Positions 41,503 to 63,119 of a DNA stretch of 64,000 nucleotides are shown here, in pieces. The notes beneath the pieces are model-generated. The model did no database searches. It was given only the letters and a program-made list of their open reading frames with translations, and had not been told where the DNA came from. Every line of letters begins with the position of its first letter. Positions within the stretch are counted from its first letter, which is position 1. Made by a program: the position numbers and the translations under genes. Origin of the DNA: Eubacteriales bacterium (lineage in GTDB: Bacteria; Bacillota; Clostridia; Lachnospirales; Lachnospiraceae); assembly GCA_030524715.1 (NCBI GenBank), contig JAUNGB010000015.1:1-64000 (forward strand). The letters are read 5' to 3'.

Positions 41503-43194
41503 TCATTCGGCCATGACTACCATGCATTCTTTCCCGCAGAAAGCCATGCCGTATTTTATGATTTTGTCCATTCTTCGCTGCCCCAGACCAACAGCGTATT
41601 TCCTGTCCTCAATCTGTTCCAATGCCTCTGCGCACCCCTTCCCGAGATTGCCATCTTCTGCGTATTTCATCTCAATCACAATACCAATCCTGTCCGGCGT
41701 ACAGATTATAATATCACTGTAACCATTTCCAAGCTCCGCATTTGAGCGGATCAGCCAGTCGCTGCGGCTTTGCAGCAAACCTAAGACCATGCCGTGATAA
41801 AAGTTTTCCTTCATGTCCTTTCTGACAGCGGTGTCACGCACACTGATCGAGTCCCACAGGTAATCGTGGAGCATATCTCCGATCAGCTTTACATCACCGC
41901 CCGGAAACGCCGCACAGAATTTTTCAATTCTCGACAGGTCGGCCCTGGATGTATCTTTGAACCATTCCTTCACCTGGGTAATGAATAAATCGTTGATCTC
42001 CGCATTTGGTATGGAAAGCATATATTCTTTTGCGGAAATGCGTTCCGTGGCAGTCAGGTAGCCCGTCATCAGCAGGACGCTCCACAGGTTTTCAATGCTG
42101 CTGTCCAAATCTCTGTATGTTAATTCCTGCGAAACAGCCTTCCGGATACTCTCCCCGGCAATCAACTGTTCAATTTCATCCCTTGTGGTCTGGTCAGCTT
42201 TGTCAATAAAGCGCCGGACCATGTCATTCCCGCTGGTGTTCGCCCAATAGTTGCCTGGAAACGCCTTCCTGTTCCTGCGGAGAGCCTGTGTATATTTGAT
42301 GACATCCCACGGGCAGTAAATGGATGCCCCGCCAAACCGGTACCCGTCATACCAGTCACGCATCGTGTCGATAGCTTCTTCCCTTCCATAATATTCCAGC
42401 AGTTCCCTCACTTCATCCTCTGTAAAGCCAAAGCTGTCATTAAAATACTCATCCGTGATCGTCATGACGTTAAGGTTATTAAGGCCAGTGAAAATACTCT
42501 CCTTGGAGATGCGCAGACAGCCGGTAATGACCGCAAACTCGAGGTCGGGATTCGTCTTCAGGGCATTTCCAAAAAGGTTCCTGATAAGCGTCACCATCTC
42601 ATCATAATATCCACCCTGAAATGCCTTGTCCAGCGGCACATCGTATTCGTCAATCAAAAGAATAACTTTTTTGCCGTAGTGCTTTGACAAGAGTTGGGAC
42701 AGCGTTTGCAGGCTTGATAAAAGAGCTGATTCTTTCATCGTAAAATCGCCATCAGCGCCAACATTCACTAAGGCTTGATATCTGTTCTTCTCAATTTCTG
42801 ACAGTCTATCGCTTTTACCCAATAATTGAAATCGCAGACATTCGTTTCCTATTACAACTTTCAATGCAGCAACCGCAGACTGAAAATCTCTCCCGTCAAC
42901 GCTTTTCAGCGTTATCGAAATCACAGGGAACTGCCCCATGTATTCTTCACACAGTTCTGTCTCCTGTGAAATTTTCAGGCCATCAAACAGCTTCCCATCT
43001 GTTCCAATTTCAAAGAAGCATTTCAGCATATCCATGGTCAGGGTCTTCCCGAACCGGCGTGGGCGGGTAAAAAGATTTACTTTTCCCATGTTTTGCAGAA
43101 GTTCCGCTATGAACATGGTCTTATCCACATAGTAATAATTTCCTGTAAAGAAATCTTCAAAAAACTCCACCCCAACAGGTAACTTCTTTACCAT
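41503..43194 (-). CDS. AAA-ATPase-like/PD-(D/E)XK nuclease-like protein
   Basis: About 563 residues. N-terminal AAA-ATPase-like domain: YVDKTMFIAELLQNMGKVNLFTRPRRFGKTLTMDML with P-loop-like RPRRFGKT, and Walker B KVILLIDEYDVPLDKAF. The C-terminal PD-(D/E)XK-like domain has SDIIICTPDRIGIVIEMKYAEDGN (Asp ... Glu-x-Lys). These genes are abundant in gut Clostridia and Bacteroidota; their role is not established. The start ATG 43194 gives the usual MVKKLPVGVEFF. The first dozen codons and the leader recur as a fragment at 59249-59329. Confidence 0.88.
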   Translation of the reverse strand: MVKKLPVGVEFFEDFFTGNYYYVDKTMFIAELLQNMGKVNLFTRPRRFGKTLTMDMLKCFFEIGTDGKLFDGLKISQETELCEEYMGQFPVISITLKSVDGRDFQSAVAALKVVIGNECLRFQLLGKSDRLSEIEKNRYQALVNVGADGDFTMKESALLSSLQTLSQLLSKHYGKKVILLIDEYDVPLDKAFQGGYYDEMVTLIRNLFGNALKTNPDLEFAVITGCLRISKESIFTGLNNLNVMTITDEYFNDSFGFTEDEVRELLEYYGREEAIDTMRDWYDGYRFGGASIYCPWDVIKYTQALRRNRKAFPGNYWANTSGNDMVRRFIDKADQTTRDEIEQLIAGESIRKAVSQELTYRDLDSSIENLWSVLLMTGYLTATERISAKEYMLSIPNAEINDLFITQVKEWFKDTSRADLSRIEKFCAAFPGGDVKLIGDMLHDYLWDSISVRDTAVRKDMKENFYHGMVLGLLQSRSDWLIRSNAELGNGYSDIIICTPDRIGIVIEMKYAEDGNLGKGCAEALEQIEDRKYAVGLGQRRMDKIIKYGMAFCGKECMVVMAE

Positions 43195-43386
43195 CTGTCC
43201 CCACACTCCTTTCCGAAGTGGTTTAAAACTCGTTCGCTCCCGCAATCCATAAGAACAGTAAATTGCAAAAACGCACAATCACCCAATTGTTTTTAGTTTA
43301 CCAGAAAGCCGCCTGACAGTCAACGAGTTCCCCTAAAGTCCGCTCTGTTCCTGTACTGACATCCGAAAGAAAATATTGATATGGCG

Positions 43387-45059: not shown

Positions 45060-45974
45060 TCACCCATCCAGTTCATTAGCTGGAAATCTATTGTTTTTCA
45101 CATCCAGGATTTCATTAAAGCTTACCCAGGTATTTGTATAAGCATCAACAAAATAAATGGGTTTGTCGCATTCATCCCATTTGTCTGGTTTTTCCATTTC
45201 ATTGGATGAGCTTACAAGAATTGCTTTTCCGGAAGGATCGCAGCCCGTATACATACACAGAAACTGGGATGCCTGACCCCCCCCCATATTCTCTGAAAGC
45301 AGCCGGGATAATATACAATGATCCAGACTATTTAGCAGATAAAATCCAGTTTGCTCCGGTTTCAGATCTCCGTTCCACCTCTCATACTCTGCATAAGGCT
45401 TTCCGTCTTTTCCTAAATCCTTTCCTGTGTTGTCATATAATACACGCCCCTCTTCTATATATGCCCATTCTCTTGGATCGTATGCCGGACCCACTGATTG
45501 GTTCCAATTCAGCGCCTTGTTTCCGTCCTTAGTTTCATTCGGCAGCCGCAGATTGCCCACCGCCGAGAACAGGCTGCACAGATAACTATTTGCTTTCTCC
45601 GCAATTTCATCAGTGTCTCCCGTACAAATACTCTTTTTTAAACCCTCGAACGTCTCTGTAATAGTTCTTATTGAATAATAGCACGCCGCTGCCATTGCCA
45701 TACTTTTTGTGTCACGAAAAACCCGGATGGACATTACGAGAAAAATATAGTGAAATGCCTGCAGTACATTGACCGCTCTATCCTGAGAATCGGCAAGGGA
45801 ATTCAGCTGTTCCAGTACCAGTTTTTTCATTGTGAACCAGCTTATTGAATGGCACTTGTCTCCGTCTCCGCCCTTAAACACAAAATTTGCTATGCCATCA
45901 AAATTCGGGCGGGAAGTTCCGGTCCAGACAAACTTGTTTTCTTTATAACATATTGTACTTAATTCAAACATCAT
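45060..45974 (-). CDS. Unknown protein, last gene of the seven-gene operon
   Basis: About 304 residues; I do not recognise it. No signal peptide or membrane helix. The N-terminal half is helical with scattered cysteines; the C-terminal half has aromatic/acidic stretches (PREWAYIEEGRVLYDN, KPYAEYERWNGDLKPEQTGFYLLNSLDHC). The start is placed at ATG 45974 (or 45971), because GAGGAAACG precedes it and the radical SAM stop codon is 7 bases upstream; a longer frame to 46025 would overlap that gene by 44 bases. A run of nine G in the coding strand (45285-45277) encodes MGGGQ and could slip. Coupling to the radical SAM gene suggests a partner or substrate. Confidence 0.75.
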   Translation of the reverse strand: MMFELSTICYKENKFVWTGTSRPNFDGIANFVFKGGDGDKCHSISWFTMKKLVLEQLNSLADSQDRAVNVLQAFHYIFLVMSIRVFRDTKSMAMAAACYYSIRTITETFEGLKKSICTGDTDEIAEKANSYLCSLFSAVGNLRLPNETKDGNKALNWNQSVGPAYDPREWAYIEEGRVLYDNTGKDLGKDGKPYAEYERWNGDLKPEQTGFYLLNSLDHCILSRLLSENMGGGQASQFLCMYTGCDPSGKAILVSSSNEMEKPDKWDECDKPIYFVDAYTNTWVSFNEILDVKNNRFPANELDG

Positions 45975-45981
45975 CGTTTCC

Positions 45982-47019
45982 TCATCCGGCATTTCTGCCG
46001 CCATAAATACACATTTGATTTTCACCGAATATATCTCCGGTCAGGGAATATCTGACCGCGGGACAGCCGCCCATGCATAATTCTCCATACGTGCAGCCAG
46101 CGCAGGCGCCCTTCAGGTCTTTCGCCGTCATGTTTCTTCTCCAGGAAAATGCATTGGGATCTTCCCAGATTTCTCTAAGGGTTCTTTCCCGCAGACTTCC
46201 CTCCCTGAATCCGGACACACACAATGAGATTCCAAGAATGTCGCCGTTGCAGGCAATATCCAAAGTGGTGATCCCGGCAGGGCAGCCCCTGAAAACAGGA
46301 ATTTTATCGGTTCCCAGCGCTTTGCTTCGGATAAGCGCTTCTTTACAGGAATAATAGCCGATGCTCTCCCCAAGATAAATCTTCATGCCGCTTTGGCTGC
46401 TGATTTCATGGCATATATCAATTAGCTGTTCTATTTCATTGGCAGACAAAACTTTTTCCTTCTTCATGTTTCCAAAGGGCAGTCCGGCCTGAATGCTCCA
46501 ATGCTCCGCCTCAAGTTCCAGCAGTTCCTCCGCCAGTCCGGGAAGGATACTGAGATTATCTTTTGTCACTGTGGTAGCGATCCAGAAGGGGATCTGTTCC
46601 GTACGCAGCAATTTTACCCCATTTACGCAGCGGGCATAGCTTCCCCTGATCCTTGACGAATCATGCGCAGCCTCTGTTCCGTCAATACTGACCGTTACTT
46701 TTTTTATTCCTGCTTTCTTGATCTTCCGGACAGTTTCCTTATCCAGAAAATAGCCGTTTGTGATGATATGGACTTCCACTCCACCGTCGGTCAATCGGAA
46801 CGCGATTTCAGCCCAGTCTTCCCTCATCAAAGGCTCTCCGCCGGTCAGCACTGCACGCTTAACCCCCATCTCCTTTATCTGCTCACATACGTTCATTGCC
46901 TCTTCATGGGAAAGCTCCTGTTCTGCCTGTCCTCTCTCAGTCCCGCACAGACAGATATCACAGTTCATATTGCACCTCCTGGTAAGCTCCCATGAGCACC
47001 ATTCTAATTTATAATCCAT
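45982..47019 (-). CDS. Radical SAM/SPASM-domain enzyme
   Basis: About 345 residues. The radical SAM [4Fe-4S] motif is CNMNCDIC (C-x3-C-x2-C) near residue 15, in WELTRRCNMNCDICLCG. The SAM-binding GGEP motif (LTGGEPLMRED) and the TVSIDGTEAAHDSSRIRGSY block follow. The C-terminal SPASM region has cysteines in FRGCPAG, ISLCVSGFREGSL, and CAGCTYGELCMGGCPAVRY ... MCIYGG, for extra iron-sulfur clusters. SPASM proteins mostly modify peptides or protein side chains. The start is ATG 47019, seven bases after GGGGAG. No short precursor peptide gene is next to it, so a protein in the operon is the likeliest substrate. Confidence 0.92.
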   Translation of the reverse strand: MDYKLEWCSWELTRRCNMNCDICLCGTERGQAEQELSHEEAMNVCEQIKEMGVKRAVLTGGEPLMREDWAEIAFRLTDGGVEVHIITNGYFLDKETVRKIKKAGIKKVTVSIDGTEAAHDSSRIRGSYARCVNGVKLLRTEQIPFWIATTVTKDNLSILPGLAEELLELEAEHWSIQAGLPFGNMKKEKVLSANEIEQLIDICHEISSQSGMKIYLGESIGYYSCKEALIRSKALGTDKIPVFRGCPAGITTLDIACNGDILGISLCVSGFREGSLRERTLREIWEDPNAFSWRRNMTAKDLKGACAGCTYGELCMGGCPAVRYSLTGDIFGENQMCIYGGRNAG

Positions 47020-47029
47020 ACCATCACTC

Positions 47030-47129
47030 CCCTGCATTTTTACTTAACTGATATCATAGACGTTCGTTATTTTGATTGCTGTTATCTTGATTACTCCTAC
47101 TTTACCCTGCATTTTTGCTTACCTGATAT
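47030..47129. repeat. 75-base degenerate tandem duplication at a gene junction
   Basis: CCCTGCATTTTTACTTAACT (47030) and CCCTGCATTTTTGCTTACCT (47105) are 75 bases apart, each followed by GATAT. The second copy is the 3' end of the beta-rich gene (coding YGYQVSKNAG); the first is a decayed duplicate in the spacer before the radical SAM gene. Confidence 0.65.
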
Positions 47130-48523
47130 CCGTACGCATCCGTTACCTCGATTGTTGCTTTTTCTTTTGCATTATAAGTGGAAACCGACCACGTCCCTTC
47201 CGGTTCTGTGGCATCATATGTGCTTCCCGACTCAAGCACAATATGGATCTTACACTGATTTTCTGATTTGATTTTCCACTCATATGTATGCTTGTAGGTC
47301 GTAAAGCCCCCTCCTTTGCACGAAAAAACAAAACCGGTAAATAATCTCTTGTCTTCTATATGCAAAAACAATTCTTCCGCGTTCAGGAATCCTTCAGCCG
47401 TTCCAACCAGCTTCAGTTTTTTCCTGCAGTCAGTCACAGTCTCCGTATTTTCCTCCACCTCTTTAAATTTTTCTATACATGGAATACTGTAGGAAATTGT
47501 CCGGGTATATTCCCGTCGGCAGTCCTTTGTCTTTGCAGTGAGGGTAAAATCAGTGGCTTTGTCCGGGTCAGGATCCACATCAAATTCTACCGCCGTACCC
47601 TGCAGCAGCGCGCTGCTTCCTGCATGTTCAATAGAAACCCCATACTCCTTATCCGCATTATTTTCGTCGATCCGCCAGGAAAACGCGGCTTTTCCGTCAC
47701 TATGAATCCAATCCAGGGAAAACTCCTTTATCATGGAAATGTAAAAAAATGTTTCCCGTGCGGCTGTGCAAGGCCGTACTGCATGATTGGTAAAGCTCAG
47801 TTCATACACATCCGACGAAATGCTGTTTATCTTTATTTTTCCTTCTTTACTGCCAGGAAATATTTCTGTTCCATTTAAATAGGCGCAAAAATCATTGGGA
47901 TCAAAATTCGTCGCCAGATAGGCCAGTTCCCCCGCTTCCCCAATATCAAATTCCTTTTTCGTATCAACAACAGGTTCAAACTTTTCGATCCGGGCAACCG
48001 GACATTTGGTGAGCATCACCCTTGCCGCCTCAGTCCGGGTTGAATCATACAGAAGGACAGGCGCGTCTCCTTTTGCTGAATCACACAGCAGATTCCCAAG
48101 CACAAATCGTATTTCCCGGACCTTTGTGATTCCGGGCGGAGGAACGATGACCAGAATACATTTTTCATTACTGCACCGGACGCTGACCGTCCAGCCGCTG
48201 GTGATCTCTTCTACCGCAATTGCCTTTGCAGAGTCCGCGGAGCACAGACATTCTGCATCTGTCCCGAGAGTAAAACCCACATAAAAGACGTCTGTATCCT
48301 CCAACTGTACCTGCCCGTCAAAGTCAGGAATATCCGCCGCGGTATACCCCGCCGGATTATGCATGATCCAATCGTCCTCACCTGATATCATGATATCAAA
48401 AATACAGGTTTCCCCAATGCTGACCGCCGACGGCTCCATGGTAAAGCAGAACCTGGTATTCTCATTTGTCCCATGCCCATAAAGGCAGGTCTCTACACGG
48501 CTTATATTCAAATACTCGTCCAT
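47102..48523 (-). CDS. Beta-rich protein with Ig-like repeats, operon gene 5
   Basis: About 473 residues, family not recognised, no signal peptide. The N-terminal part (1-190) looks like a lectin-like or adhesin-like beta sandwich (FTMEPSAVSIGETCIFDIMISGEDDWIMHNP, VREIRFVLGNLL). Residues about 195-470 hold two or three Ig-like units with recurring patterns such as IEKFEPVVDTKKEFDIGE and IEKFKEVEENTETV. The start is ATG 48523, eight bases after AAGGAG and three bases past the preceding gene's stop; the frame extends six codons into that gene. It probably packs against the larger beta-rich products of the same operon. Confidence 0.75.
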   Translation of the reverse strand: MDEYLNISRVETCLYGHGTNENTRFCFTMEPSAVSIGETCIFDIMISGEDDWIMHNPAGYTAADIPDFDGQVQLEDTDVFYVGFTLGTDAECLCSADSAKAIAVEEITSGWTVSVRCSNEKCILVIVPPPGITKVREIRFVLGNLLCDSAKGDAPVLLYDSTRTEAARVMLTKCPVARIEKFEPVVDTKKEFDIGEAGELAYLATNFDPNDFCAYLNGTEIFPGSKEGKIKINSISSDVYELSFTNHAVRPCTAARETFFYISMIKEFSLDWIHSDGKAAFSWRIDENNADKEYGVSIEHAGSSALLQGTAVEFDVDPDPDKATDFTLTAKTKDCRREYTRTISYSIPCIEKFKEVEENTETVTDCRKKLKLVGTAEGFLNAEELFLHIEDKRLFTGFVFSCKGGGFTTYKHTYEWKIKSENQCKIHIVLESGSTYDATEPEGTWSVSTYNAKEKATIEVTDAYGYQVSKNAG

Positions 48524-48525
48524 AT

Positions 48526-51500
48526 TCATGTCTCCTTCCATGTGAGATATCCCTCAGTGATTCTGTGGCTGTCCTCGGTAAGTGTCTCTGCTGACGTGCC
48601 CTGCAGCTCCTGCACAATTTTTCTGCCGTCTGCCGCTGTTTCCACGTAGCTTAGCTGCTTTCCCTTTAACCGACTGATTGGCAGCGCTGTCTGCTGCATA
48701 CTGGTTATAACAGGAGCCGCCAGAATGTACGGCTGTATTTTTTGCGTCTGCTTTTCATATAATTCCGCATTCAGACGTAACTCTTTGACAGGCAGGATAC
48801 CTGTCCTGACTGTGAGCTCCTTATATGGATCCAGGAAAAATACAAATTTCTGCATTCCGTCTTCAGCAAAGTCCCGGAGAGAAAACCGCAGTTCATTATT
48901 AAAGAGCAGAACCTTTCCTTCTTCCAGGTCATTCTGGACTGCCCTGCATAAATGCAGCCTTTGAAATCGGTTCTCCTGGTCTTTACTGTCCTCAAAAAAT
49001 CCGATCACGCCGTCCTGGTTTTTTCTCATATCACCGATCCGGATAGTAAACTCTCCCCATTCATATTTGTGGGAGTTATTCCTCTCCCCGCCCCAAAATT
49101 CAACAGGCAATCCATATTGCTCCACTTCGAGGGAACCGCCTACAATGGCAATCAAATTTTCCACGCCGGACAGGGCGTGTTTTTCCTGGATCTTTGAAGA
49201 AAAATAACGGTCGATCTCTGACAAAAGCATTTCCAGCTGGTGAGCGCTCCATTCTTTCATACTGTCCAGCAGCGCCTTCAGTTTGGGCTTGAGGCCCTTT
49301 TCCTGTTCCTCAGCCGTTTTCCAGGGATTCTCCTTCCATGCGGCAGAACCGTCCGTTCCGGGATAAAGCCATCCTAAAAAAACTCCGTCGGCATCATAAA
49401 TCTGCATATCCATATTCAGGTAATCACACAGGATAAAGCCCAGAACAGGCGAGGTATCCTCATTCACTGCTTCCGCCGTATTGTCCTCCGCCGAAATCCA
49501 TTCCCAATTCAAACGAACGCCATTTAAAAAACGTGCCGGCAATACTGCCCGGTCCTTCTCTTCCGCGCGCATACTTTCTCCAAATATCAGGCTGCCGTCA
49601 TCCAGGCTTATATCCCGGTACTGGCCAAAGCTGTCGATCAGCCGAAGCTTCGAGGGCTCTATGTATCCGCCCTGGACCGCCATAAAATAATCTTCCGGCA
49701 ATCCGTCATAGGGCATGGGATGAATCCCGGTCAATATTTGCTGCACTCTCGCCGCATATCTGCCGGTATCCTCCTTTTCCGGCAAAGGCAGAATGGGCAG
49801 CGAAGCAGAATACTGCACTCCGCGGAAGGTTTCCGTGAATCCCTCCAACTGCTGAGATAAGATCTGTCTGCTTTCAAGCCTGCTGCAAATAGCCTCCAGT
49901 TTCCCGTAATCCACGCTTCCTTCCTGATAGGTATCCTTCAGTTCTTCCACAGCCTTCTTCAAATGCATCGGCGCATGAGGCGTCAGCAGCGTCTTTCCAT
50001 GGATATCCAGACTCCTTTGGGCGGGTTTTCCGGTTTCTGCCGGTTCCAGGTCAATATCCCCTAATGTATAATAATCCAGCGCTGTTTCATCCGTGGAACC
50101 GCAGGGGGAAGTCGCCTTCATCCGCCATTCCAGCAGCAAAGGGTGCCAGGGCATAGACCATTGGCGCAAAGCAAGCATAGAAGGAGCGTTATCTTCTCCA
50201 TTGCGCGCCTCTTCAACGGCCTGTCTTGCTTTTTCCATATCTTTGGCAGGATTCAGGCTTCCTGCCTTATCCAATAATCTTTCTGCCAGAAAATCAGAAA
50301 AATCCTGGCCAAGCAGTATGGTCTCAATAAAAATCGGTTTTACAAAATCCGGCAGTGCTATGCCGTCCACAGGCATCACATGCCTTTCAAGATCAGCAAA
50401 TTCCAGGGGAATTTTTTCTCCCTCCAACACTGCCTCTATTCTGCCGATCGCCTCTGTCCGGCAGCGCAGCGTTCCGTCTTCATCACTTTGAAAACCCTGC
50501 TGATAGGTTCTTTCCTCGTCTTTTTGGACAAACATTATCGCCGGAGCCGTCGGCCGCACAAAAAAGTCCTCCTGCTCCAGTGATAATCTCAATCCTGTTT
50601 TCTCCAGTTCCCTGTCAAGTTCTTCGGATTCTGTTTTTATTTCCCTGCTGCTGTCAGAGATCGTCTGCTCTGCAGAGGAAAGGGCATTGAGCGCTTCCTC
50701 TAATTCAGCTTCCCATACAGGCGTCCCGTCAAAGGAAAAATCGTTCAGTTCTTTGATATACTTGCACCACAATAAATATGCACGTTCTTCCAGATCCGCT
50801 CTCGTCCGGGCCGCACGATTCAGCTTCTTAAGCTTATCCTTCAGGCCAATGAAGCGCTGACGCGATTCCCGGGATAGTGAAATCGTAAGCTCATCGCTCT
50901 TTTCGCTGCATTTCTTTATATTCATCCTTTCGCCCCCGGCAACATACTGAAAAGAGCGCTGATGAAGCTTATCCTCCATGCTGATGATCCGGTCTGTCAG
51001 GTTTTCATTGTCAAGTTCCGGGATCAGCCCTGACTGAAGCGCATACAGGATACGCTCAATTCCTTCCGCCTCCGGCATCTTTTCCTGTATATAAGCGGAA
51101 AGCGCTTCCGCCGATGTGGCAGCCAGTACAAGATCTCCCTTCAGGCTTTCCTGAGACTGGTAACAATGCTCCCTTCCCATCCACTCTACTTTGGATACGG
51201 CGCCGTGGCAGAGCATACACCGGGGTTTCTCCGCCCCCTTCCATGTCCATCCCATCAGGTTATTGTCGCCGCTCATAGTCTCATTCCCATAAAACGGATC
51301 CGACTCTTCACGGGCATAGTAACCGCACACAAGATAAGTGAAGGTCCCTGTCTGAATATTCTTCATGGAATCGTAAAATCCGAACACTGTTTTTGAATTC
51401 GGATACATGGCAGAGAAAAGATGATCGCCCATACCCACTGCGCTCAGCTTTTCCACAGAGTCCTTCTCCTTCATTTCATCCTCCGCGGAAACCACATCAC

Positions 51501-51969
51501 CGATGAAGTGATAATATGCCCCTTCATCTCCTGCGGGAACCCAGTACCCTTTCTTGTCGTCATATGCCAGAGCGGGCAATGCTGTCTTCCCCATTCCCTC
51601 GCTGGTGCGTCCCTCTTTCTCAGCGCTTATCACGTCGCTTCTCACAAGCCAGGCTCTGGATTCCACAAGCCCTCCATTTGTCCGCATCCTGACTATATAC
51701 CAGCGGTTCGGCACTTCAGGAAAGCTAAGCTCTCCATCCTCTCCCTGTACTCCATGCAGAAGCGCGTCCGGCAGTATCCACTGCAGATGAGCGCCCGGAT
51801 ATTCCTGAACGGTAGAAAATTCTCCTGCCATTATCTCGTTTCCAAACAAGCAGTCTTTTCCCAAAAGCCTGTACTGAAAAGCTGCTGCTGAAAGCGTTTT
51901 TTCTATTCCGGGATTTCCAAGCAGGAGTACGTTTAATGTAATCGGTACTAATAACGGCTTATCATTCAC
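48526..51969 (-). CDS. Large protein of unknown function, operon gene 4
   Basis: 1147 residues without signal peptide or membrane helix. The N-terminal 120 residues are distinctive: YPGAHLQWILPDALLHG then FPEVPNRWYIVRM and RAWLVRSDVIS. I recall this kind of motif (hLHWxLPDALxxG ... FPxVPNRW) in very large uncharacterised actinobacterial and cyanobacterial proteins, but cannot check. Residues about 350-470 are a coiled coil (GLKDKLKKLNRAARTRADLEERAY ...). A CMLCHG pair near 262 might bind metal. The C-terminal half is mixed alpha/beta. The ATG overlaps the 277-aa gene's stop by four bases (ATGA), so synthesis is coupled. Confidence 0.78.
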   Translation of the reverse strand: MNDKPLLVPITLNVLLLGNPGIEKTLSAAAFQYRLLGKDCLFGNEIMAGEFSTVQEYPGAHLQWILPDALLHGVQGEDGELSFPEVPNRWYIVRMRTNGGLVESRAWLVRSDVISAEKEGRTSEGMGKTALPALAYDDKKGYWVPAGDEGAYYHFIGDVVSAEDEMKEKDSVEKLSAVGMGDHLFSAMYPNSKTVFGFYDSMKNIQTGTFTYLVCGYYAREESDPFYGNETMSGDNNLMGWTWKGAEKPRCMLCHGAVSKVEWMGREHCYQSQESLKGDLVLAATSAEALSAYIQEKMPEAEGIERILYALQSGLIPELDNENLTDRIISMEDKLHQRSFQYVAGGERMNIKKCSEKSDELTISLSRESRQRFIGLKDKLKKLNRAARTRADLEERAYLLWCKYIKELNDFSFDGTPVWEAELEEALNALSSAEQTISDSSREIKTESEELDRELEKTGLRLSLEQEDFFVRPTAPAIMFVQKDEERTYQQGFQSDEDGTLRCRTEAIGRIEAVLEGEKIPLEFADLERHVMPVDGIALPDFVKPIFIETILLGQDFSDFLAERLLDKAGSLNPAKDMEKARQAVEEARNGEDNAPSMLALRQWSMPWHPLLLEWRMKATSPCGSTDETALDYYTLGDIDLEPAETGKPAQRSLDIHGKTLLTPHAPMHLKKAVEELKDTYQEGSVDYGKLEAICSRLESRQILSQQLEGFTETFRGVQYSASLPILPLPEKEDTGRYAARVQQILTGIHPMPYDGLPEDYFMAVQGGYIEPSKLRLIDSFGQYRDISLDDGSLIFGESMRAEEKDRAVLPARFLNGVRLNWEWISAEDNTAEAVNEDTSPVLGFILCDYLNMDMQIYDADGVFLGWLYPGTDGSAAWKENPWKTAEEQEKGLKPKLKALLDSMKEWSAHQLEMLLSEIDRYFSSKIQEKHALSGVENLIAIVGGSLEVEQYGLPVEFWGGERNNSHKYEWGEFTIRIGDMRKNQDGVIGFFEDSKDQENRFQRLHLCRAVQNDLEEGKVLLFNNELRFSLRDFAEDGMQKFVFFLDPYKELTVRTGILPVKELRLNAELYEKQTQKIQPYILAAPVITSMQQTALPISRLKGKQLSYVETAADGRKIVQELQGTSAETLTEDSHRITEGYLTWKET

Positions 51970-52799
51970 AGCTTTACTCCCTTCACTTCAATCCGAAGCG
52001 GCGTATTCATCAGTTCCAGCGCAGTTTCTATTGCCGATAACGTATTTTTCTGCTCATCGCTTAACTGAAGTTTATCCGCCGCATCTTTCATCAGTTTTTC
52101 CAGATCCACAACCCGATCCGCCCGTCCCTGCTTCATGGGAACAGCGATCACATCCGGCCCGCCTGCTTCTGTTCCTCTTTTCTTTTTTACATATACAGCG
52201 TCGTTGTCTGCGAATTTCTCCCGCTTGGGCAGTGCTGTGACCGGCAGTACAGGCTGCCCCCGGGCATCCTCTTCAAAGCCAAAGGAAAGAACGCTTTCTG
52301 ACTGGATAAATGCCAGGCGCTCCACTTTTCCTGCTGCGATCCCGATCATAATATCTTCGCCGATCTGCTCCAGTCTCTCAAGTTCAGCTCTGCTGCCGCT
52401 GCCGTCACAGGCCTCTATCCGTATGCCCTTCCAGTTCCTGACAAGCCCGGAGCGCAGCAAAAAACCGGTTCTTACCTTATCTGCCGGTCCTCTCATCTGC
52501 TGAAGCAGCATATCGTCATGCTTCAGGTCAAAGGTTGTGGTCCTGCCCACGCTTGAAGCGCCGTCCATAAGACAGCTGACCCAGTTCTCATCCACATAGA
52601 AAAATTTCAGGCTCTCATTGGGAAGCAGGCTTTTGTCTGAGATCAGATATTCAAAAGGAACTCCCTTTAACGTCCGCAAATCTCTGAAAAAGTTTTCCAA
52701 CAGAGATCCTGAAGCCATATAATGAAATAATTTTCCAGCCTCCCCCTCTTCCGTTTCTCCAAATTCCCACAGGGACATAGGTTTATGCCATGATTTCAC
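51966..52799 (-). CDS. 277-residue protein of unknown function, operon gene 3
   Basis: A soluble protein I cannot name. A conserved-looking core spans about residues 28-95: MASGSLLENFFRDLRTLKGVPFEYLISDKSLLPNESLKFFYVDENWVSCLMDGASSVGRTT. Its wording (GVPFxYLhxDxxhLPxESLxFFYhDxNW) resembles segments of large proteins that I associate with DUF6603 gene neighbourhoods, from memory only. The rest is mixed alpha/beta with a helical C-terminus. It overlaps both neighbours by four bases (ATGA), an arrangement typical of proteins made in fixed ratio. Confidence 0.76.
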   Translation of the reverse strand: MKSWHKPMSLWEFGETEEGEAGKLFHYMASGSLLENFFRDLRTLKGVPFEYLISDKSLLPNESLKFFYVDENWVSCLMDGASSVGRTTTFDLKHDDMLLQQMRGPADKVRTGFLLRSGLVRNWKGIRIEACDGSGSRAELERLEQIGEDIMIGIAAGKVERLAFIQSESVLSFGFEEDARGQPVLPVTALPKREKFADNDAVYVKKKRGTEAGGPDVIAVPMKQGRADRVVDLEKLMKDAADKLQLSDEQKNTLSAIETALELMNTPLRIEVKGVKL

Positions 52800-55700
52800 A
52801 ATATCTCATCCCCCTTCTCATTTAATCCGGAAAGCAGCCACGAGCCTGCCTTTTTTCCTTCTGTTCTTGCACTGCTCTTCAGCATTTTCTCCTGCAAGGC
52901 CCTTTTATTGGCGTTTCTCATGGAAAGCAGCTGCTCTGAAACGGATTCGTTGCCCAGGGCCAGCAGCCGGCCAAGCTGCCATGCAATAGCATAGGATACG
53001 TCAAAAGCGCCTTTTTCCGAATCATACCGGTACAGGGAATCCGCGCAATGCAGCGGTCCCTGAGTCCCGGAGCCGGGAACCTCAACAGGAGTGAAGGGCC
53101 CCCGGTAAAAGGAAATGGTCTGGCTGCCGTCCTGCATATTATGCTGCATAGGTGAATAGCCATTATTTATAAGCTTCTTATACAGGTCGCTCCCCTCGGG
53201 GGATTCCCGTGTCAGCAGCCCGGTATCCAGGGAAGCGACCGTCTTTACGAAAGGCTCTTCTTCTGTTCTGGAATAAAAATCCCAGCTATACATCACCAGA
53301 ACCCTGACCTTTTCAAAGCCTGCCTTCTGATCAGACCAATACCCTTCGCATCCCTCCAGAGAAACAAGATACGCTCTGTTTTTTACCGGAGAATCCTGCG
53401 TTTCCGGCAAACGGTTGGATATCACACAGGAAACCCATTCCGTGGAAGGAATACTGTTTTCCGCCTTATCCTCCCCGGACAGACTCCGTCCATGGCTCAG
53501 CCAGGAAAGCTCCTTTTTCGAAGGCAGAATCGCCGAAAAAAGCTCCTGGTCCACATCTATGTATTGACAACTCCGGCCCTTTTCCTCGTTGTTCAGCGTC
53601 AATTCCGGAGTCCGTATTTTATCTGCCGGGGCAGTGACTTTCTCCGCTGTCCCTGTATTGATCTCCACGATCTCGTTTCCGGACAGCAGCATAAGCCATA
53701 ACCAGGGAACCACTCCGGAGGGAGGCTCTTCCTGCTGCCCTGATGCAGCAAAGGCTGCCTGTGCTGATACGCCTCGTTCCCAGGGAATGGTCTTACGCTT
53801 CAAAAGGACATGAGGCAAACACTTTCCGAAATGTCCCTCCGCGCCGCTGCCGGGATATATGGATACCACCTCTTCCTTCAGATCAAACCGCGGGCCTTCC
53901 ACCGAAAAGTCCTGTGTCAAAACCTCAGATTTTCCCAGGATATCTCCATCCACCCGGACAGTAATACGGTAATCCCCGCTTTTCAATGCAGGCACACAGG
54001 ATTCCAGCAAATCAAACTTTACATTATCAGCCTCATCCGGATCCTTATGGCGCTCCTGTTCCGGCAGCTTCGCTATAGACGGAAGCGCCGCTTCCACAGG
54101 AGGTACCGTCCGCACTTCATTCTGACAATGGATCCCCCAGTAGTTCATCTGCCTTGCGGCGGATATCCTCAAGCCTGTATAGGCGCTCATGGTTTCTGAC
54201 GAACAATCTTCCCTCCCCCACAATGCCGTCGGAACATTTTCCAGAACCGGCTCCACCTGAAAAGCATCGTTTATCTCTCCTTTATCGAGCCTGGTCAGCG
54301 TGACCTCGTGAACCGCCGCCGCCTCCTTTTTACAGGGCCGGATGTAGATCTTATCCTTTGGATCACCTGCGCAGAATCGGTCGTTCCATTTGATGGATGC
54401 TGCAATAAGGGGAGACTTTGTGATGATACACAATTTCTCTGCATTGACTTTCACCCTGTCAGAGGAGCCGTCTGCTCCTATGCCCTCTGCGATGGTAATC
54501 GTACTTCCTCCAAAAGCGGCGTCCGAATCATTTTGTTTCGTACTTTTCAGGAAGGATTCGCAGAATTCTGCTTCTGATATAGTATCCACCTTCTGAGAGC
54601 CGCTGCCAAAGCTGATGTCAAAACTGATGATCCATAGATGGATCTTCGCGATTCCTGAAAACTCCGGTCCCCAGACAGACAAAGAGCAGCCAAGCTCCAG
54701 ATTAATGTGAAAAAGCTTTAAATTTGCCTTTACTCCAATGGTCACTCCAATGTCAAAGGCATAGGAATATGGCTTCCATCCAATAAAAATATCTATGTAT
54801 GCGTCAAACCATGCATGAATGCATTTCCAGTCAAAATTCAGGGAAAGGGCGCCGCCCGCCATAATACAGGAGGGAGTAAGGGCGCAGTACAGGCTTCCCT
54901 GGGCGTTTAAATTATCGCTGAGCTTCCAGGTAAGCTGCAGACGGTCCACCGCCGGATAATGATCGGGCTTTTGATATCCATTTCTGTATCCTCCCACAGA
55001 CAGCACGAAATCCCCTGCATGCTCCCCCTGGTACCAGAGATAAAAGGCAAAGCCGCCGCTAATCCTGCAGTCCTTCGACATAATATAAGATGATTTTGTC
55101 AGGATTCCTTCGATTGGTATCACTCCGCTTTTCGGGTCAATGGTTATTTTTATCAGTAATCCGATATCTGCCAGAATTTTTTTGCCGCCGCGGGGAAACT
55201 GAATTGCGGTGCTTCCCAAAATATCAAAAAGGAACGGCTTTCCTAAAATTGCCAGAAGAAGCACGGAGCTCTCCGCCATCTTAAAGGAATTTGCCCGTAT
55301 CCCCGCCGCCGCCCAGTTTGTCCCGGCTGCCGGCGGAAACAGATTCTCTGACTGTGCCGCGATCGTTTCCGGAGAAAGCTTTCCTGACATTACCTCAAGC
55401 AGCGGAAACTGCTCCAGCGACTCAATATCCGGGACCTGGACCGACCTGGCGTAGCCCACACCTGCGGCCAGACCGTCCACCACAAAACAAGGGGGACCGC
55501 CGAAGGCTCCCTGTACCATGCCAAACAGAAATCCGGACGGAAAGGGTTTGGGCTGGTATTCTCCCAGAACATTGATACCGTAATCGCCGATACGAATCCT
55601 GATCTGCCCGCTGTAGACCTGGCTGCCGGAAGATGAATTTACAAATTTCCCCAGCATGGAAAAAGACTCTTCTTCTTTGTCGATCATCAGGCCGGCCAAT

Positions 55701-55876
55701 CTGCATCCGAACGTGTGCTTTTTCAGATCATAAGAAAAGCTGAGGCCATCCAGTTCCAGTTTCAATCCGCCGGTATCAAAGGACGCGTACAGCCCCAATG
55801 TAACAGCTTGCCCATTATAAGAGACAGCGATACGATCCAGTTTGAATACTCCGATAGATTTCCCGACAGGAATCAC
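52796..55876 (-). CDS. DUF6603-like giant beta-rich protein, operon gene 2
   Basis: 1026 residues. Residues about 1-420 match what I know of DUF6603 proteins: YGQIRIRIGDYGINVLGEY-type start, GGPPCFVVDGLAAGVGYAR, GDFVLSVGGYRNGYQKPDHYPAVDRLQLTWKLSDNLNAQGSLYCALTPSCIMAGGALSL, then WFDAYIDIFIGWKPYSYAFDIGVTIGV and WGPEFSGIAKIHLWIISFDISFGSGS. Long amphipathic strands with glycine turns suggest an elongated beta structure. The C-terminal 600 residues are less conserved. No signal peptide. It overlaps both neighbours by four bases. Function of DUF6603 is unknown. The family assignment is from memory. Confidence 0.78.
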   Translation of the reverse strand: MIPVGKSIGVFKLDRIAVSYNGQAVTLGLYASFDTGGLKLELDGLSFSYDLKKHTFGCRLAGLMIDKEEESFSMLGKFVNSSSGSQVYSGQIRIRIGDYGINVLGEYQPKPFPSGFLFGMVQGAFGGPPCFVVDGLAAGVGYARSVQVPDIESLEQFPLLEVMSGKLSPETIAAQSENLFPPAAGTNWAAAGIRANSFKMAESSVLLLAILGKPFLFDILGSTAIQFPRGGKKILADIGLLIKITIDPKSGVIPIEGILTKSSYIMSKDCRISGGFAFYLWYQGEHAGDFVLSVGGYRNGYQKPDHYPAVDRLQLTWKLSDNLNAQGSLYCALTPSCIMAGGALSLNFDWKCIHAWFDAYIDIFIGWKPYSYAFDIGVTIGVKANLKLFHINLELGCSLSVWGPEFSGIAKIHLWIISFDISFGSGSQKVDTISEAEFCESFLKSTKQNDSDAAFGGSTITIAEGIGADGSSDRVKVNAEKLCIITKSPLIAASIKWNDRFCAGDPKDKIYIRPCKKEAAAVHEVTLTRLDKGEINDAFQVEPVLENVPTALWGREDCSSETMSAYTGLRISAARQMNYWGIHCQNEVRTVPPVEAALPSIAKLPEQERHKDPDEADNVKFDLLESCVPALKSGDYRITVRVDGDILGKSEVLTQDFSVEGPRFDLKEEVVSIYPGSGAEGHFGKCLPHVLLKRKTIPWERGVSAQAAFAASGQQEEPPSGVVPWLWLMLLSGNEIVEINTGTAEKVTAPADKIRTPELTLNNEEKGRSCQYIDVDQELFSAILPSKKELSWLSHGRSLSGEDKAENSIPSTEWVSCVISNRLPETQDSPVKNRAYLVSLEGCEGYWSDQKAGFEKVRVLVMYSWDFYSRTEEEPFVKTVASLDTGLLTRESPEGSDLYKKLINNGYSPMQHNMQDGSQTISFYRGPFTPVEVPGSGTQGPLHCADSLYRYDSEKGAFDVSYAIAWQLGRLLALGNESVSEQLLSMRNANKRALQEKMLKSSARTEGKKAGSWLLSGLNEKGDEIL

Positions 55877-57834
55877 GCCGCTCCACTGTTGGTCATCCCC
55901 ATCTCCGGCAGCAGCTTTGTGTTCTGTTTATGAGCCTCCGGTTTATTCGTCCCGAGGCTGCCCTGGAAATTCAGGATTTCTTCTCCCAGATTCAAACTGG
56001 CTATCATCGTAAAACCGGAGGGCGCAGTAACTGTATCGATAAGGTTCCCAATGGATTCTCCCTTTACCTCCTGGCTGGAATACAGGAAAATAAGATTCTC
56101 CAGGGAAACCCTGTCCAATTGGGGAATTACATTTCCCACAAAAGGAATCTCAGAAAACGCAAAATTCCCCTGTATCTCCAGTGCAAACGCCTTCCACGGA
56201 GTTCCGTCTTCCGTTGTTTTCTTCACTGCCGCAAATTCGGCGCTTCTAAACGCAGATTTATTCTCTTCCGGTGACAGGCAGACTATGCCTGAAACGGAAA
56301 AGCCGCTGTCCTCTGTTTTCTTTTCCTGTTCCAGGAAAGCCGGCCGACTCTCCTTTTGTTTCCCGCTGTCCAATTTCTGAAAAGCTGACTGGCTCTCTTC
56401 CTGTTTTTTGTTGTCCAATTCGATCCGAAGGTGTGACAGATACAGATCCGGCAGCGTAATCCTGCTGCCCTTGAGCAGACTGTTCCATAAATCGCTTAGC
56501 TTAATATAGCTTTCCTCTGCCAAATACCCGGACACAGACGTGGAGTTCTCATCCCATAGAGCCTCCACAGAAAATGGGGCGTCTGCAATAGAAAAATCTC
56601 CGTGGATACTCCAGGAAAAGGCCTGGTCTTTTTTAATTCCCACTGTAATGTTTTTTACGGCAAAGCCCAGGATGCTCCAGTCTGTATCAATGGAAAACAA
56701 TATCTGAAAGGAATTCGCCTCATGCCTGCCGGCGTCATATGTAAGCATAAATTCTCCCAATGAAACATTGTCTATTCCAAAGGGCAGGCACTCCATATCA
56801 AAGCCTGACAGCCATGCTGAGAATATACTTTTTAAATCAATGTTGCTGTCGGTTCCCTTGATCGTAACAAAAAAGGAGTTTCCTCCTGAATAATAAGATA
56901 CACAAATGGGGAAAACAACAGACGCCATCGTTATCTCTCCCGAGACAGACGCGTCAAAGCACTTGCCCGGCGCCCCGGGATTCCCGGAAATATCAAGCAC
57001 TCCCAGCCCCAATTCTGTCAATCGGACTTCAAACTGCGGTACCGGACTCCATGACAGCTCTCCGCCGATTTCTAACGAAAACCTTATCAGTTCCAGCGTA
57101 TTTTTCACAGCATTGTAAGAAATACTAAAATCTTTAATGACAAGGTATTCACTTATTTTCGCGGCTAATTCTTTCGGAATGATATTCTGTTTTTCGTCTA
57201 TTCCTATCAGATCCAGCAATTTCTCAAGTCCGATATTTCCCTGATATTCCCCGTCCGAGTATGAATCAGTTTTTTTCCTGCTCATTTCAAAGAAAACGCC
57301 ATATCTGAAATCTATCCCGGAAAATGAGACGGCCAGTTTATTATTCTCCGTTTCTGATATGCGCCATACTCCCGTAATCTGGTGGAAGCAGTTTTCGCTG
57401 CCCTCTGACCGGCTCACTATGTAGGTCAGTTCTTCAAAATGAAACATCCCAAATCCGGCCAAAGGACATTTATCCCCAATCTCCAACGTCAGAGAAACCG
57501 ACACGGATCCGGCCGCCTGATATACGTCCGGTTTCGTATTAATATTGGCTACCGCCTGATATACGTCCGATTTCTTATTAGCATCGGCTGCCGCCTGGCA
57601 GACGTCCAGTTCAGCGCCGATGTTTTCATACCTGCACCCGCAGATTACAGCGCAGGAAACCTGCGCGCGTATCTTCATATTTTCATTTGACAGAATTTGT
57701 ACGGACACTTTATCAGAATCCATTACATCCCCAAAAACCGGCTGCACCAACTGAGGATAACTATTGATATCCTCTTTTGAAATTTCATACGTTTGATCTG
57801 CCTTGATCCCCTGGATCCAAGTGATAATATCCAT
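55873..57834 (-). CDS. 653-residue beta-rich protein, first gene of the operon
   Basis: It has no signal peptide. Its repeated alternation of hydrophobic/polar strands (ITMASVVFPICVSYYSGGNSFFVTIKG, SILGFAVKNITVGIKKDQAFSWSIHGDFSI) resembles the N-terminal parts of DUF6603 proteins, so I infer kinship with the next gene. Near residues 78-112 lies a 13-residue tandem repeat, DVYQAVANINTKP type (39-bp units at 57512, 57551 and a partial at 57590). A Gln/Lys/Ser-rich hinge near 470-510 has degenerate repeats. GAGGAAAACATT precedes the ATG. It overlaps the 1026-aa gene by four bases (ATGA). I found no convincing -35/-10 upstream. Confidence 0.78.
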   Translation of the reverse strand: MDIITWIQGIKADQTYEISKEDINSYPQLVQPVFGDVMDSDKVSVQILSNENMKIRAQVSCAVICGCRYENIGAELDVCQAAADANKKSDVYQAVANINTKPDVYQAAGSVSVSLTLEIGDKCPLAGFGMFHFEELTYIVSRSEGSENCFHQITGVWRISETENNKLAVSFSGIDFRYGVFFEMSRKKTDSYSDGEYQGNIGLEKLLDLIGIDEKQNIIPKELAAKISEYLVIKDFSISYNAVKNTLELIRFSLEIGGELSWSPVPQFEVRLTELGLGVLDISGNPGAPGKCFDASVSGEITMASVVFPICVSYYSGGNSFFVTIKGTDSNIDLKSIFSAWLSGFDMECLPFGIDNVSLGEFMLTYDAGRHEANSFQILFSIDTDWSILGFAVKNITVGIKKDQAFSWSIHGDFSIADAPFSVEALWDENSTSVSGYLAEESYIKLSDLWNSLLKGSRITLPDLYLSHLRIELDNKKQEESQSAFQKLDSGKQKESRPAFLEQEKKTEDSGFSVSGIVCLSPEENKSAFRSAEFAAVKKTTEDGTPWKAFALEIQGNFAFSEIPFVGNVIPQLDRVSLENLIFLYSSQEVKGESIGNLIDTVTAPSGFTMIASLNLGEEILNFQGSLGTNKPEAHKQNTKLLPEMGMTNSGAA

Positions 57835-60981: not shown

Positions 60982-62949
60982 TCATGCAGACGGATGCGCC
61001 CTTACGCCCTTTGTTTTCCTGCCTAACATAATGTCGCCCACTTCTTTCCAGCATCGCCCACGGGATAACGCTTCCCACAGCTGTTCATCCTCTGATAGGA
61101 GCAAATGATCATCGTCAATTGCCTTTTTTCCAAAAATCACATCAATGCTGTCCAGCAGCACAAGCAGTGTCTGCGCTGTTGCATCCTTAAAATCTCTGAT
61201 CATCGGATGGTCCTGTGGCAGGTCTCCGTTCCATGCCCGGACAAACATACTGTACATTTCCGCTACACTGATCTCATCTTCATCCCGGATTGTTGAGAAA
61301 TAGTCGCTTATCATTTGTGCCTGTTTTCCATTGTGGCTCGGCCAGTCCCTGAACTCTCGGCTGATTCCCAGTTTGCCCCGGTATGCGACAAATGGGATTG
61401 GTGTTATCAGCCTGTCCGCATATTCGGAAAAATACTCTTCTAAAAGGAAAAAATCATCCCTCCCGACCCAAAAACACATATGCTCAAGGCGTTTTTTCTT
61501 TGAAACTTTACCGGCAAAACTATGTGTTCCACGTTCTAACAGGATTTTCATCGCCCCTGTAAAAAGTTTCCTGAGCTTCGTTCCCTCTACTGTGATATAT
61601 ACTTTTATGTTGTATACGCTGCCGTAAAGGTGACAGTTATGATCTGTAACAAAAAGATAATTCCAAAAGCTGTCATTCTTGGCCGATATACTATTCCAAC
61701 GTTCTTTATTTTGTTCTGACAATTCCATAATGCTCTGCATATCGCGGTCTGTCCAGTCAGTTGATATCCCAGCTTCCAGGTGCTGCATTTCTCCATATAT
61801 CGCTTCGAATCCTTTTTCAGGTTCATAACATCTATATAAAGAACGTAAAAGCATATTTTTTGAGCGGTATGTTTCACCTTCAGTCGGGATATCGCATTCA
61901 CGGGCTCCTGCATTTGCAGAAGGGATTATAACCCCATCAGGCAGCGGCGCAGCATAGAGCGCTTTTTCTTTTCTTTCTTCCTCTTCGACTCGTTCTTTTT
62001 CCTGTTTCCGCATTTGGGCTGCCCTTCTGCGAAGTTCCGGTATTTTTGCAGGATCAAATATCTTTCCGGTATTTTCTGCCGGACTCTTCCCTTCTTTATT
62101 TTCGCCATACATATAAATGTGCGGCTGCCCTTCCTTTTGGTTCTTGAATTCATGAATAATTGCGTCCTGATACTGGAAACATCCATATTGTTTCCCGCTG
62201 TAACCAGTTACGACCGAATCCCCTGCCTGGATAAAAAGGAATGGTTTCCGATCAATGTCGTCACATATGAAATGATTATTGAATTCCTTCATTTCCTTTT
62301 CGAATCCATAATGCCGTGCATAAATCTCAGTCACGACCAGGTTATCAATCAGGACAATCAGCGACTCTTCCGGATCTCTTCCCTCACTGTTAAGACGCAC
62401 ATGCCACAGATAATGCCAGATCAATGTTTTCAGGCTGTACTGCAGGGTCTTTGCGTCCGCTTTCTGTTCCAGAATATCAAGATATTCTTCAAGTTCACGG
62501 TGATCCAACCTATCGATCAGTTCATCTGCTAATTTTGCATAAGCTTTTGACATAACACTGCTTATGAACTGACAGGCCTGCTTAAAAGACGTTCCCCTGA
62601 ACCCCGAAAAATCCAAATCGATAACATCACATGTATGCATGCGTTTTTTATAGTCCGGTTCTATCCGTGCGATTTCTTTATCTGCAAACAAGTCTTCAGA
62701 CTCATTTTTGTCGTAAAAATATCGGAACATTGACAAAAATGTAGTTTTCCCATAGCCGTCTGCGCTACACAGGATGCTCGTCTTATCAGCATAGTATCTC
62801 TGAAGGTACTTTGTCTGGTCAACATACGGATATCCGCCCGTCAGAAGCTGTTTAAAATCAGACGGAGCCGCATTGCTTCTTTCCTTTACATTACATCTCT
62901 TTATGTACTCTTCTTCGTAGTCTTCCTTTTTCTGTTCATCATCCCACAT
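60982..62949 (-). CDS. AAA-ATPase-like protein, full-length copy
   Basis: About 655 residues. The N-terminal part (about 30-250) is AAA-ATPase-like: PYVDQTKYLQRYYADKTSILC, P-loop variant SADGYGKTTFLSMFRYFYD, Walker-B-like ESLIVLIDNL. A charged helix (about 320-350, MRKQEKERVEEEERKEKAL) leads to a C-terminal domain of unknown fold (YGSVYNIKVYITVEGTKL, FCFWVGRDDFFLLEEY-type stretch, HPMIRDFKDATAQTLLVLLDSIDVIFG). No PD-(D/E)XK signature was seen. ATG 62949 follows AGGTG by six bases; the frame also has a GTG at 62958. The C-terminal half is duplicated at 43387-44319 with a deletion. Confidence 0.8.
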   Translation of the reverse strand: MWDDEQKKEDYEEEYIKRCNVKERSNAAPSDFKQLLTGGYPYVDQTKYLQRYYADKTSILCSADGYGKTTFLSMFRYFYDKNESEDLFADKEIARIEPDYKKRMHTCDVIDLDFSGFRGTSFKQACQFISSVMSKAYAKLADELIDRLDHRELEEYLDILEQKADAKTLQYSLKTLIWHYLWHVRLNSEGRDPEESLIVLIDNLVVTEIYARHYGFEKEMKEFNNHFICDDIDRKPFLFIQAGDSVVTGYSGKQYGCFQYQDAIIHEFKNQKEGQPHIYMYGENKEGKSPAENTGKIFDPAKIPELRRRAAQMRKQEKERVEEEERKEKALYAAPLPDGVIIPSANAGARECDIPTEGETYRSKNMLLRSLYRCYEPEKGFEAIYGEMQHLEAGISTDWTDRDMQSIMELSEQNKERWNSISAKNDSFWNYLFVTDHNCHLYGSVYNIKVYITVEGTKLRKLFTGAMKILLERGTHSFAGKVSKKKRLEHMCFWVGRDDFFLLEEYFSEYADRLITPIPFVAYRGKLGISREFRDWPSHNGKQAQMISDYFSTIRDEDEISVAEMYSMFVRAWNGDLPQDHPMIRDFKDATAQTLLVLLDSIDVIFGKKAIDDDHLLLSEDEQLWEALSRGRCWKEVGDIMLGRKTKGVRAHPSA

Positions 62950-63119
62950 GTTTTTCACCTGCCTGAATCAATAAATTGACGATCTTATATAACACCTGAT
63001 CTTCCTGTAAACCATTATAATACAGAGCAGCTGTCATGTCATTGTACCGATAGTATAAAGATTACCAGACCGTGCTGAAAAACTTAGCAGGTTCTTTTTC
63101 GACTACTGGCATTTACAGC
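62950..63119. other. Intergenic, nothing recognised
   Basis: AT-rich spacer between the ATPase gene and the 89-residue gene; no gene or clear terminator seen. Confidence 0.5.

Follow-up and report, generated by a model that had tools for sequence, protein, structure and literature searches.

Do the seven closely spaced genes between positions 45060 and 57834 of a 64,000-nucleotide stretch from a Lachnospiraceae genome (Eubacteriales bacterium, contig JAUNGB010000015.1, hereafter the window) form a single unit, and what might their giant, beta-rich products do? The initial annotation had described an operon on one strand, built around DUF6603-like proteins and a radical S-adenosylmethionine (SAM) enzyme. 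Open reading frame (ORF) calls bear out this layout, with seven minus-strand ORFs that span exactly this interval and encode, for genes 1 to 7, products of 653, 1026, 277, 1147, 479, 351, and 321 amino acids; the sizes given for the first four stand, and only gene 5, listed at about 473 residues, is 479 residues long as the longest ORF. Overlaps of 4 nucleotides join genes 1/2 (55873-55876), 2/3 (52796-52799), and 3/4 (51966-51969); further on, genes 4 and 5 overlap by 16 nucleotides, genes 5 and 6 are separated by 64, and genes 6 and 7 overlap by 44. We find that genes 1 to 5 are lineage-specific cuts of a conserved six-region set (A, B-C, D, E, and F, respectively), present as a single copy in this Clostridia genome, and that the operon is only partly a seven-gene unit, as neither gene 6 nor gene 7 accompanies the set elsewhere as a rule.

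The DUF6603 link made in the initial annotation was confirmed by a match of gene 2 residues 4-444 to PF20248 at E 4.5e-121 (405 bits against a gathering cut-off of 27). This portion corresponds to region B (54536-55876), and region C occupies about residues 621-1026 of the same protein (52796-54016), as judged by iterated profile, domain order, and structure model. The Pfam entry gives no function, and the partner set of regions A and C to F, along with an upstream enzyme gene, is a new addition to what Pfam holds on this family. Genes 1, 3, 4, 5, and 7 yielded nothing at a meaningful E-value in the Pfam scan.

We examined recurrence in 90 loci, comprising the window and L004-L092, all of which were collected via gene 2/DUF6603 and never via genes 3 or 4; 80 of them are the best of 111 encoding places found in a scan of a genome collection, nearest to the DUF6603 of the window, so the picture may be different for remoter DUF6603 proteins. 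Profiles built iteratively from the proteins of the window detected gene 2 in 89 of the 90 loci, gene 3 (region D, 51966-52799, also followed by sequence alignment) in 85, and gene 4 (region E, 48526-51969) in 83, and an F-type cluster (BLAST-linked, mostly genes adjoining E) was present in 69. Recurrence of genes 3 and 4 beside gene 2 at these frequencies exceeds chance and, as neither had been used to choose the loci, supports a conserved set; the statement in the initial annotation that the two share a neighborhood in other phyla thus proved correct. Gene 3 was not found in L010, L011, L037, L065, and L081, nor gene 4 in L010, L011, L023, L033, L039, L065, and L068. Two of these, L010 and L011, are fragments of places whose other fragment carries genes 3 and 4 (L009/L010 and L013 represent one place twice), and several others are short or stop near the set; gene 3 is missing from L037 and L081 without so clear an excuse.

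The host phyla, assigned by us from record names for the collection loci, number about ten: Bacillota, Cyanobacteriota, Actinomycetota, Pseudomonadota, Acidobacteriota, Chloroflexota, Bacteroidota, Verrucomicrobiota, Myxococcota, and SAR324, with one place lacking a phylum. Near home DUF6603 is scarce, being found, with the source genome counted each time, in 2 of 64 same-genus, 2 of 200 same-family, and 2 of 398 same-phylum genomes. It was also present on nine plasmid records from Streptomyces, Embleya, and Paenibacillus; phage records and viral contigs gave no DUF6603 match. About 7 kb upstream of DUF6603, the P. polymyxa plasmid p-YT9A (L004, 436-7203) has two genes that bear the annotation baseplate assembly protein V, together with a DUF4280 gene, a GH-E nuclease gene, and an ankyrin gene.

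The same regions are cut and ordered differently between lineages. With slashes marking gene boundaries, the arrangement was AB/CD/E/F in 16 loci, E/F/x/AB/CD in 13, AB/C/D/E/F in 9, E/F/AB/CD in 7, and E/F/ABCD in 2, and the rest formed smaller groups. In most other loci the second protein begins with C, and D belongs to the same protein as C; the BC/D/E cut of the window, where A precedes and F follows to give A/BC/D/E/F, is the sole case among the loci. In L073 and L087, regions A through D are fused as one protein, which together with their separation elsewhere argues that these regions act together. This lineage-dependent splitting and fusion makes a single multi-protein assembly likely, as had been suggested earlier from the tight coupling of the genes. 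Gene 1 (region A, 55873-57834) corresponds to the N-terminal portion of DUF6603 proteins in other genomes, since its iterated profile reached 60 of 75 N-terminal extensions (those over about 250 residues, with lengths of 270 to 2512), and it holds internal repeats of ∼150 residues (profile-profile probability 95.8%). DUF6603 proteins exceed 3000 residues in L026, L030, L071, L074, L075, and L079, where more than 2000 residues lie ahead of DUF6603. Between D and E, genome G565 encodes a protein with a C-terminal Hint domain (L012, 2582-4312), relatives of which adjoin the set in G610 and L019.

AlphaFold predicted region B to be a long amphipathic antiparallel beta-meander, with predicted local distance difference test (pLDDT) values mostly above 90, and placed a long C-terminal helix in region C. 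The faces of the B strands in this model differed more than in all 500 shuffles. The model of gene 4 (predicted template modeling score 0.86, pLDDT 86) contains a helical hairpin at residues 367-456, and its structural matches come only through this coiled-coil element, the best Foldseek match in the PDB having an E-value of 1.2; likewise, the gene 4 profile retrieved only helical or coiled-coil chains from PDB sequences (best E 0.0035). Gene 3 had no PDB sequence match, no PDB sequence relative was found for B to E beyond the coiled-coil matches of E, and neither the B-C model nor the E model, the only two made, had a convincing PDB fold match. The earlier impression of no recognized system among the products is supported, as no such system was matched by Pfam, by PADLOC, or by Foldseek on the two models.

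Relatives of region F carry lectin-like and phage-fibre-like domains. Among 59 F proteins scanned, 18 matched Laminin_G_3, 5 Peptidase_S74 (chaperone of endosialidase), 3 tail collar, and 1 phage spike domains, and PLAT, kelch, or pentaxin domains appeared in single members; a G[IV]GT..P motif, known from phage fibres, was present in 26 of 82 F-cluster members. Gene 5 (47102-48541) is a diverged member of this receptor-binding-protein-like family. A profile that had been started from the F protein of the Lachnospiraceae locus L013 matched it at E 3.2e-10 before the window was included; it also matched two other F seed profiles at E 0.002-0.025, and was not matched by an L043-seeded profile, which also drew reversed decoys and is not trustworthy.

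The gene directly before A-B, termed X, varies by locus; in some loci this position holds F, another core gene, or an opposite-strand or distant gene. We chose 47 X candidates on the same strand and mostly within about 340 nucleotides (that of L056 lies two genes up), leaving out the near-duplicates L045, L055, and L083 and any loci that offered no suitable neighbor. Twelve matched the metallo-beta-lactamase (MBL) fold (Lactamase_B), five the EEP nuclease/phosphatase fold, three class 3 lipase (Lipase_3), one DUF4135, and one sulfatase, and another weakly matched the M91 "effector" peptidase (E 0.0035). The metal motif H-x-[HDN]-x-DH was kept in 20 of 22 MBL-type ORFs (the number after dropping 5 that overlap other coding regions; one of them, in L019, is encoded on the other strand from the set) and in the relative from G610. 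For the EEP-type ORFs, a class that we defined and that includes two pairs of near-duplicates, 9 of 10 had GD[FL]N and all 10 had SDH. The same-genus genome G610 has the order MBL-AB-C-D-E, followed by genes for proteins of 538 residues (E 1.6e-6 at best to F profiles), 223 residues, and 582 residues, the last a relative of the Hint-bearing protein of G565; the nearest relative found thus possesses an enzyme gene where none was seen in the window. Flank clusters common to at least 10 loci comprised F, MBL, two taken as antisense artefacts, one containing an ABC ATPase, and one further cluster.

To compare rates, we used 56 pairs of loci with similar X, drawn from 136 pairs with all parts and 269 candidate pairs; the pairs share members and are not independent, and in five loci X was assigned manually. 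Median identities were 39% for X, 42% for the A N-terminus, 43% for F, 45% for the A C-terminus, 51% for E, 56% for C, and 65% for B. X was less identical than B in 56 of 56 pairs, than C in 54 and E in 51, than the A C-terminus in 45, and than F in 42 of 52. The Actinomadura pair L057/L064 displays the pattern most fully, with identities of 94% (B), 92% (C), 89% (D), 90% (E), 90% (F), 67% (A), and 39% (X). Within AB of this pair, the first ∼450 residues are 47-65% identical, and at around residue 500 the identity along A steps up from about 50% to about 90%. The near-identical pairs L043/L045, L051/L055, and L079/L083 provided no contrast between X and the rest. On these alignments, X can be read as being exchanged or as changing rapidly together with its docking surface; alternatively, the pattern may reflect rapid divergence without exchange.

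The idea that the seven genes form one unit around the radical SAM enzyme was not sustained. Gene 6 (45982-47037) does encode a radical SAM/SPASM enzyme, as had been proposed, with matches to PF04055 (5.1e-26) and PF13186 (1.4e-5), and it resembles SPASM radical SAM enzymes such as AhbD and the nif11 peptide maturases by model matches down to 2e-57 for AhbD-type models; all among the best 25 of 102 model matches listed were below the curated cut-off. Within the 90 loci, however, it occurs only in the window and in the Lachnospiraceae L010/L013 place, and elsewhere 6 of 194 relatives reach E 1e-60 or better, the source genome included; of these, G598 and G054 had no DUF6603 match. Gene 7 (45060-46025), which has no family name, matched only itself among the loci. 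The survey of gene neighborhoods that the initial annotation had proposed as a check thus showed co-occurrence for the regions of genes 1 to 5 and, apart from the L010/L013 place for gene 6, none for genes 6 and 7, which we take for local accessories rather than conserved members of the set; gene 6 perhaps modifies a component of the complex. A known anti-phage defence system was considered and rejected, as PADLOC gave only viperin models for gene 6, at best 9.9e-23, and no match for genes 1 to 5 and 7.

What might the conserved part do? We propose, with confidence approaching but not reaching an even chance, that genes 1 to 5 encode a complex targeted to a receptor, with a giant beta-sheet that would act on lipids or membranes and, in many relatives, carry a variable enzyme. 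Its synthesis would take place in the cytoplasm, and lysis or another route would presumably release it. Regions A and B would form a very long amphipathic antiparallel beta-sheet, the non-polar face of which would shield lipid, wrap hydrophobic cargo, or insert into the membrane of a target. The parts would be joined by a hub of C, D, and E, F would be the outer tip that binds the target surface, and X, encoded just upstream of A in many relatives, would dock as payload on the fast-evolving N-terminal part of A. This carrier reading matches the parts list, namely a variable enzyme, an amphipathic sheet, a conserved hub, a surface-binding tip, and few export signals. A strongly hydrophobic stretch in the first 60 residues was seen in 2 of 173 gene-2-family, 1 of 85 gene-3, and 18 of 85 gene-4 ORFs; by this crude test most of the set appears to lack an export signal, in line with what had been noted for the large products of the window. 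It is also plausible, at rather less than even probability, that the set represents an undescribed class of receptor-tipped particle with hosts in about ten phyla. Its lipid- or membrane-active carrier would be an ApoB-like or barrel-like amphipathic sheet protein of roughly 900-3700 residues, with an exchangeable enzyme docked on the N-terminal repeats.

Several observations weigh against the carrier reading. Neither an enzyme gene adjoining A (two small ORFs there were outside the scan) nor a LamG or fibre domain in gene 5 (Pfam scan) was seen in the window, and several other loci have no evident enzyme gene before A-B. Two of the 47 upstream proteins, a dihydrofolate reductase and a saccharopine dehydrogenase, look like bystanders, so that upstream position alone is no proof of cargo. 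The metal motif is lost in the MBL-type proteins of L057 (6124-7767) and L064 (6101-7750), which are only 39% alike in otherwise near-identical loci, and GxSxG was not found in the lipase-type proteins of L074 and L075, which disfavors a simple lipase reading of these two. X was less identical than the A N-terminus in only 39 of 56 pairs, and the two rates differ little. Foldseek of the gene 2 model returned no match at E 1e-3 or below and query-normalized template modeling (TM) scores of at most 0.17 among the best 50 matches listed. Lastly, no export, lysis, or immunity gene was present among the flank clusters of at least 10 loci, the smaller clusters having been identified in part.

Known systems offer partial parallels. 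The Tc (ABC) toxin complexes are large multi-protein sets with a receptor-binding part and a variable enzyme (PMC6868009). Our set would have similar parts; it differs in that genes 1 to 5 contain no RHS/YD-repeat, SpvB, TcA, or TcB family (Pfam scan of genes 1 to 7, up to E 1) and in that its enzyme is encoded by a separate gene. Furthermore, the TcA pore is mainly helical, whereas B is a predicted amphipathic beta-meander. Extracellular contractile injection systems (eCIS) are likewise spread sporadically across phyla and share the fibre-like tip domains of the F relatives, but no sheath, tube, baseplate, or AAA ATPase family was found by Pfam in genes 1 to 7. Of 37 host genomes searched for a sheath, 22 had a match, counted at any distance from the loci, and 15 had none. 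The earlier statement that this is not an injection system is too strong in view of the phage-fibre-like gene and varying enzyme gene of the relatives. Our best reading of these comparisons is that the set would function like a toxin complex, yet it fits no family tested.

Other explanations account for some of the same features. The set could be a bacterial lipoprotein-like carrier that kills nothing: the sheet would wrap lipid as in apolipoprotein B (ApoB), F would attach the particle to surfaces, and the associated enzyme, whether a lipase or a hydrolase of the EEP or MBL type, would process the lipid. The predicted long antiparallel amphipathic sheet of B is loosely like those of ApoB and large lipid transfer proteins; sequence identity was 6-9% in the cited ApoB matches with a root mean square deviation of 9.3 or more, however, and no vitellogenin-type N-terminal domain was detected by Pfam in genes 1 to 5. 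Outer-membrane porins gave similar Z scores to the B model at a deviation of about 12, and here many hosts are Gram-positive and few members of the set have hydrophobic N-terminal stretches. Given the weak Foldseek E-values and TM scores, the likeness to ApoB and porins is one of arrangement only. We regard the lipid carrier as unlikely.

An intracellular conflict or defence system, with the upstream hydrolase as effector and the giant proteins sensing infection, would fit the sporadic spread noted above among same-genus and same-phylum genomes, the effector-like enzyme folds of X, and the Schlafen and AAA-ATPase_like genes near the operon. The LamG and phage-fibre domains of F fit an outside target better, genes 1 to 5 contain no NTPase family in the Pfam scan, and the only PADLOC hits, those of gene 6 to viperin, are far weaker than its AhbD-type matches; we judge defence improbable. 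We think it just as improbable that the set is a cell-surface or spore-coat structural assembly serving in adhesion or as matrix, in which case the enzyme gene would be a bystander. Beta-rich giant proteins and lectin-like F domains would suit such a role, but export signals are mostly lacking (the gene-4 ORFs counted above providing some exceptions), the set occurs in phyla that are not known to form spores, and the varying enzyme gene and its rate are left unexplained.

The nearest named genes upstream of A in the window are Schlafen-like and AAA-ATPase-like. Predicted AAA-ATPase_like genes lie on both sides of the operon (39672-40826, 41503-43278, and 60982-62958), one of them with a PDDEXK_9 nuclease domain, and perhaps represent repeated insertions. 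Searches of the window for tRNA and Rfam families gave no match.

None of the conserved regions A to E bears a functional family name, although the set turns up in hosts as far apart as Clostridia and Cyanobacteria. If the receptor-targeted enzyme carrier proves true, it would add a new principle of delivery to those of toxin complexes and contractile systems; if the lipid carrier does, bacteria would have their own equivalent of lipoprotein particles. Either reading can be tested directly with the parts list and the apparent enzyme cassette in hand.

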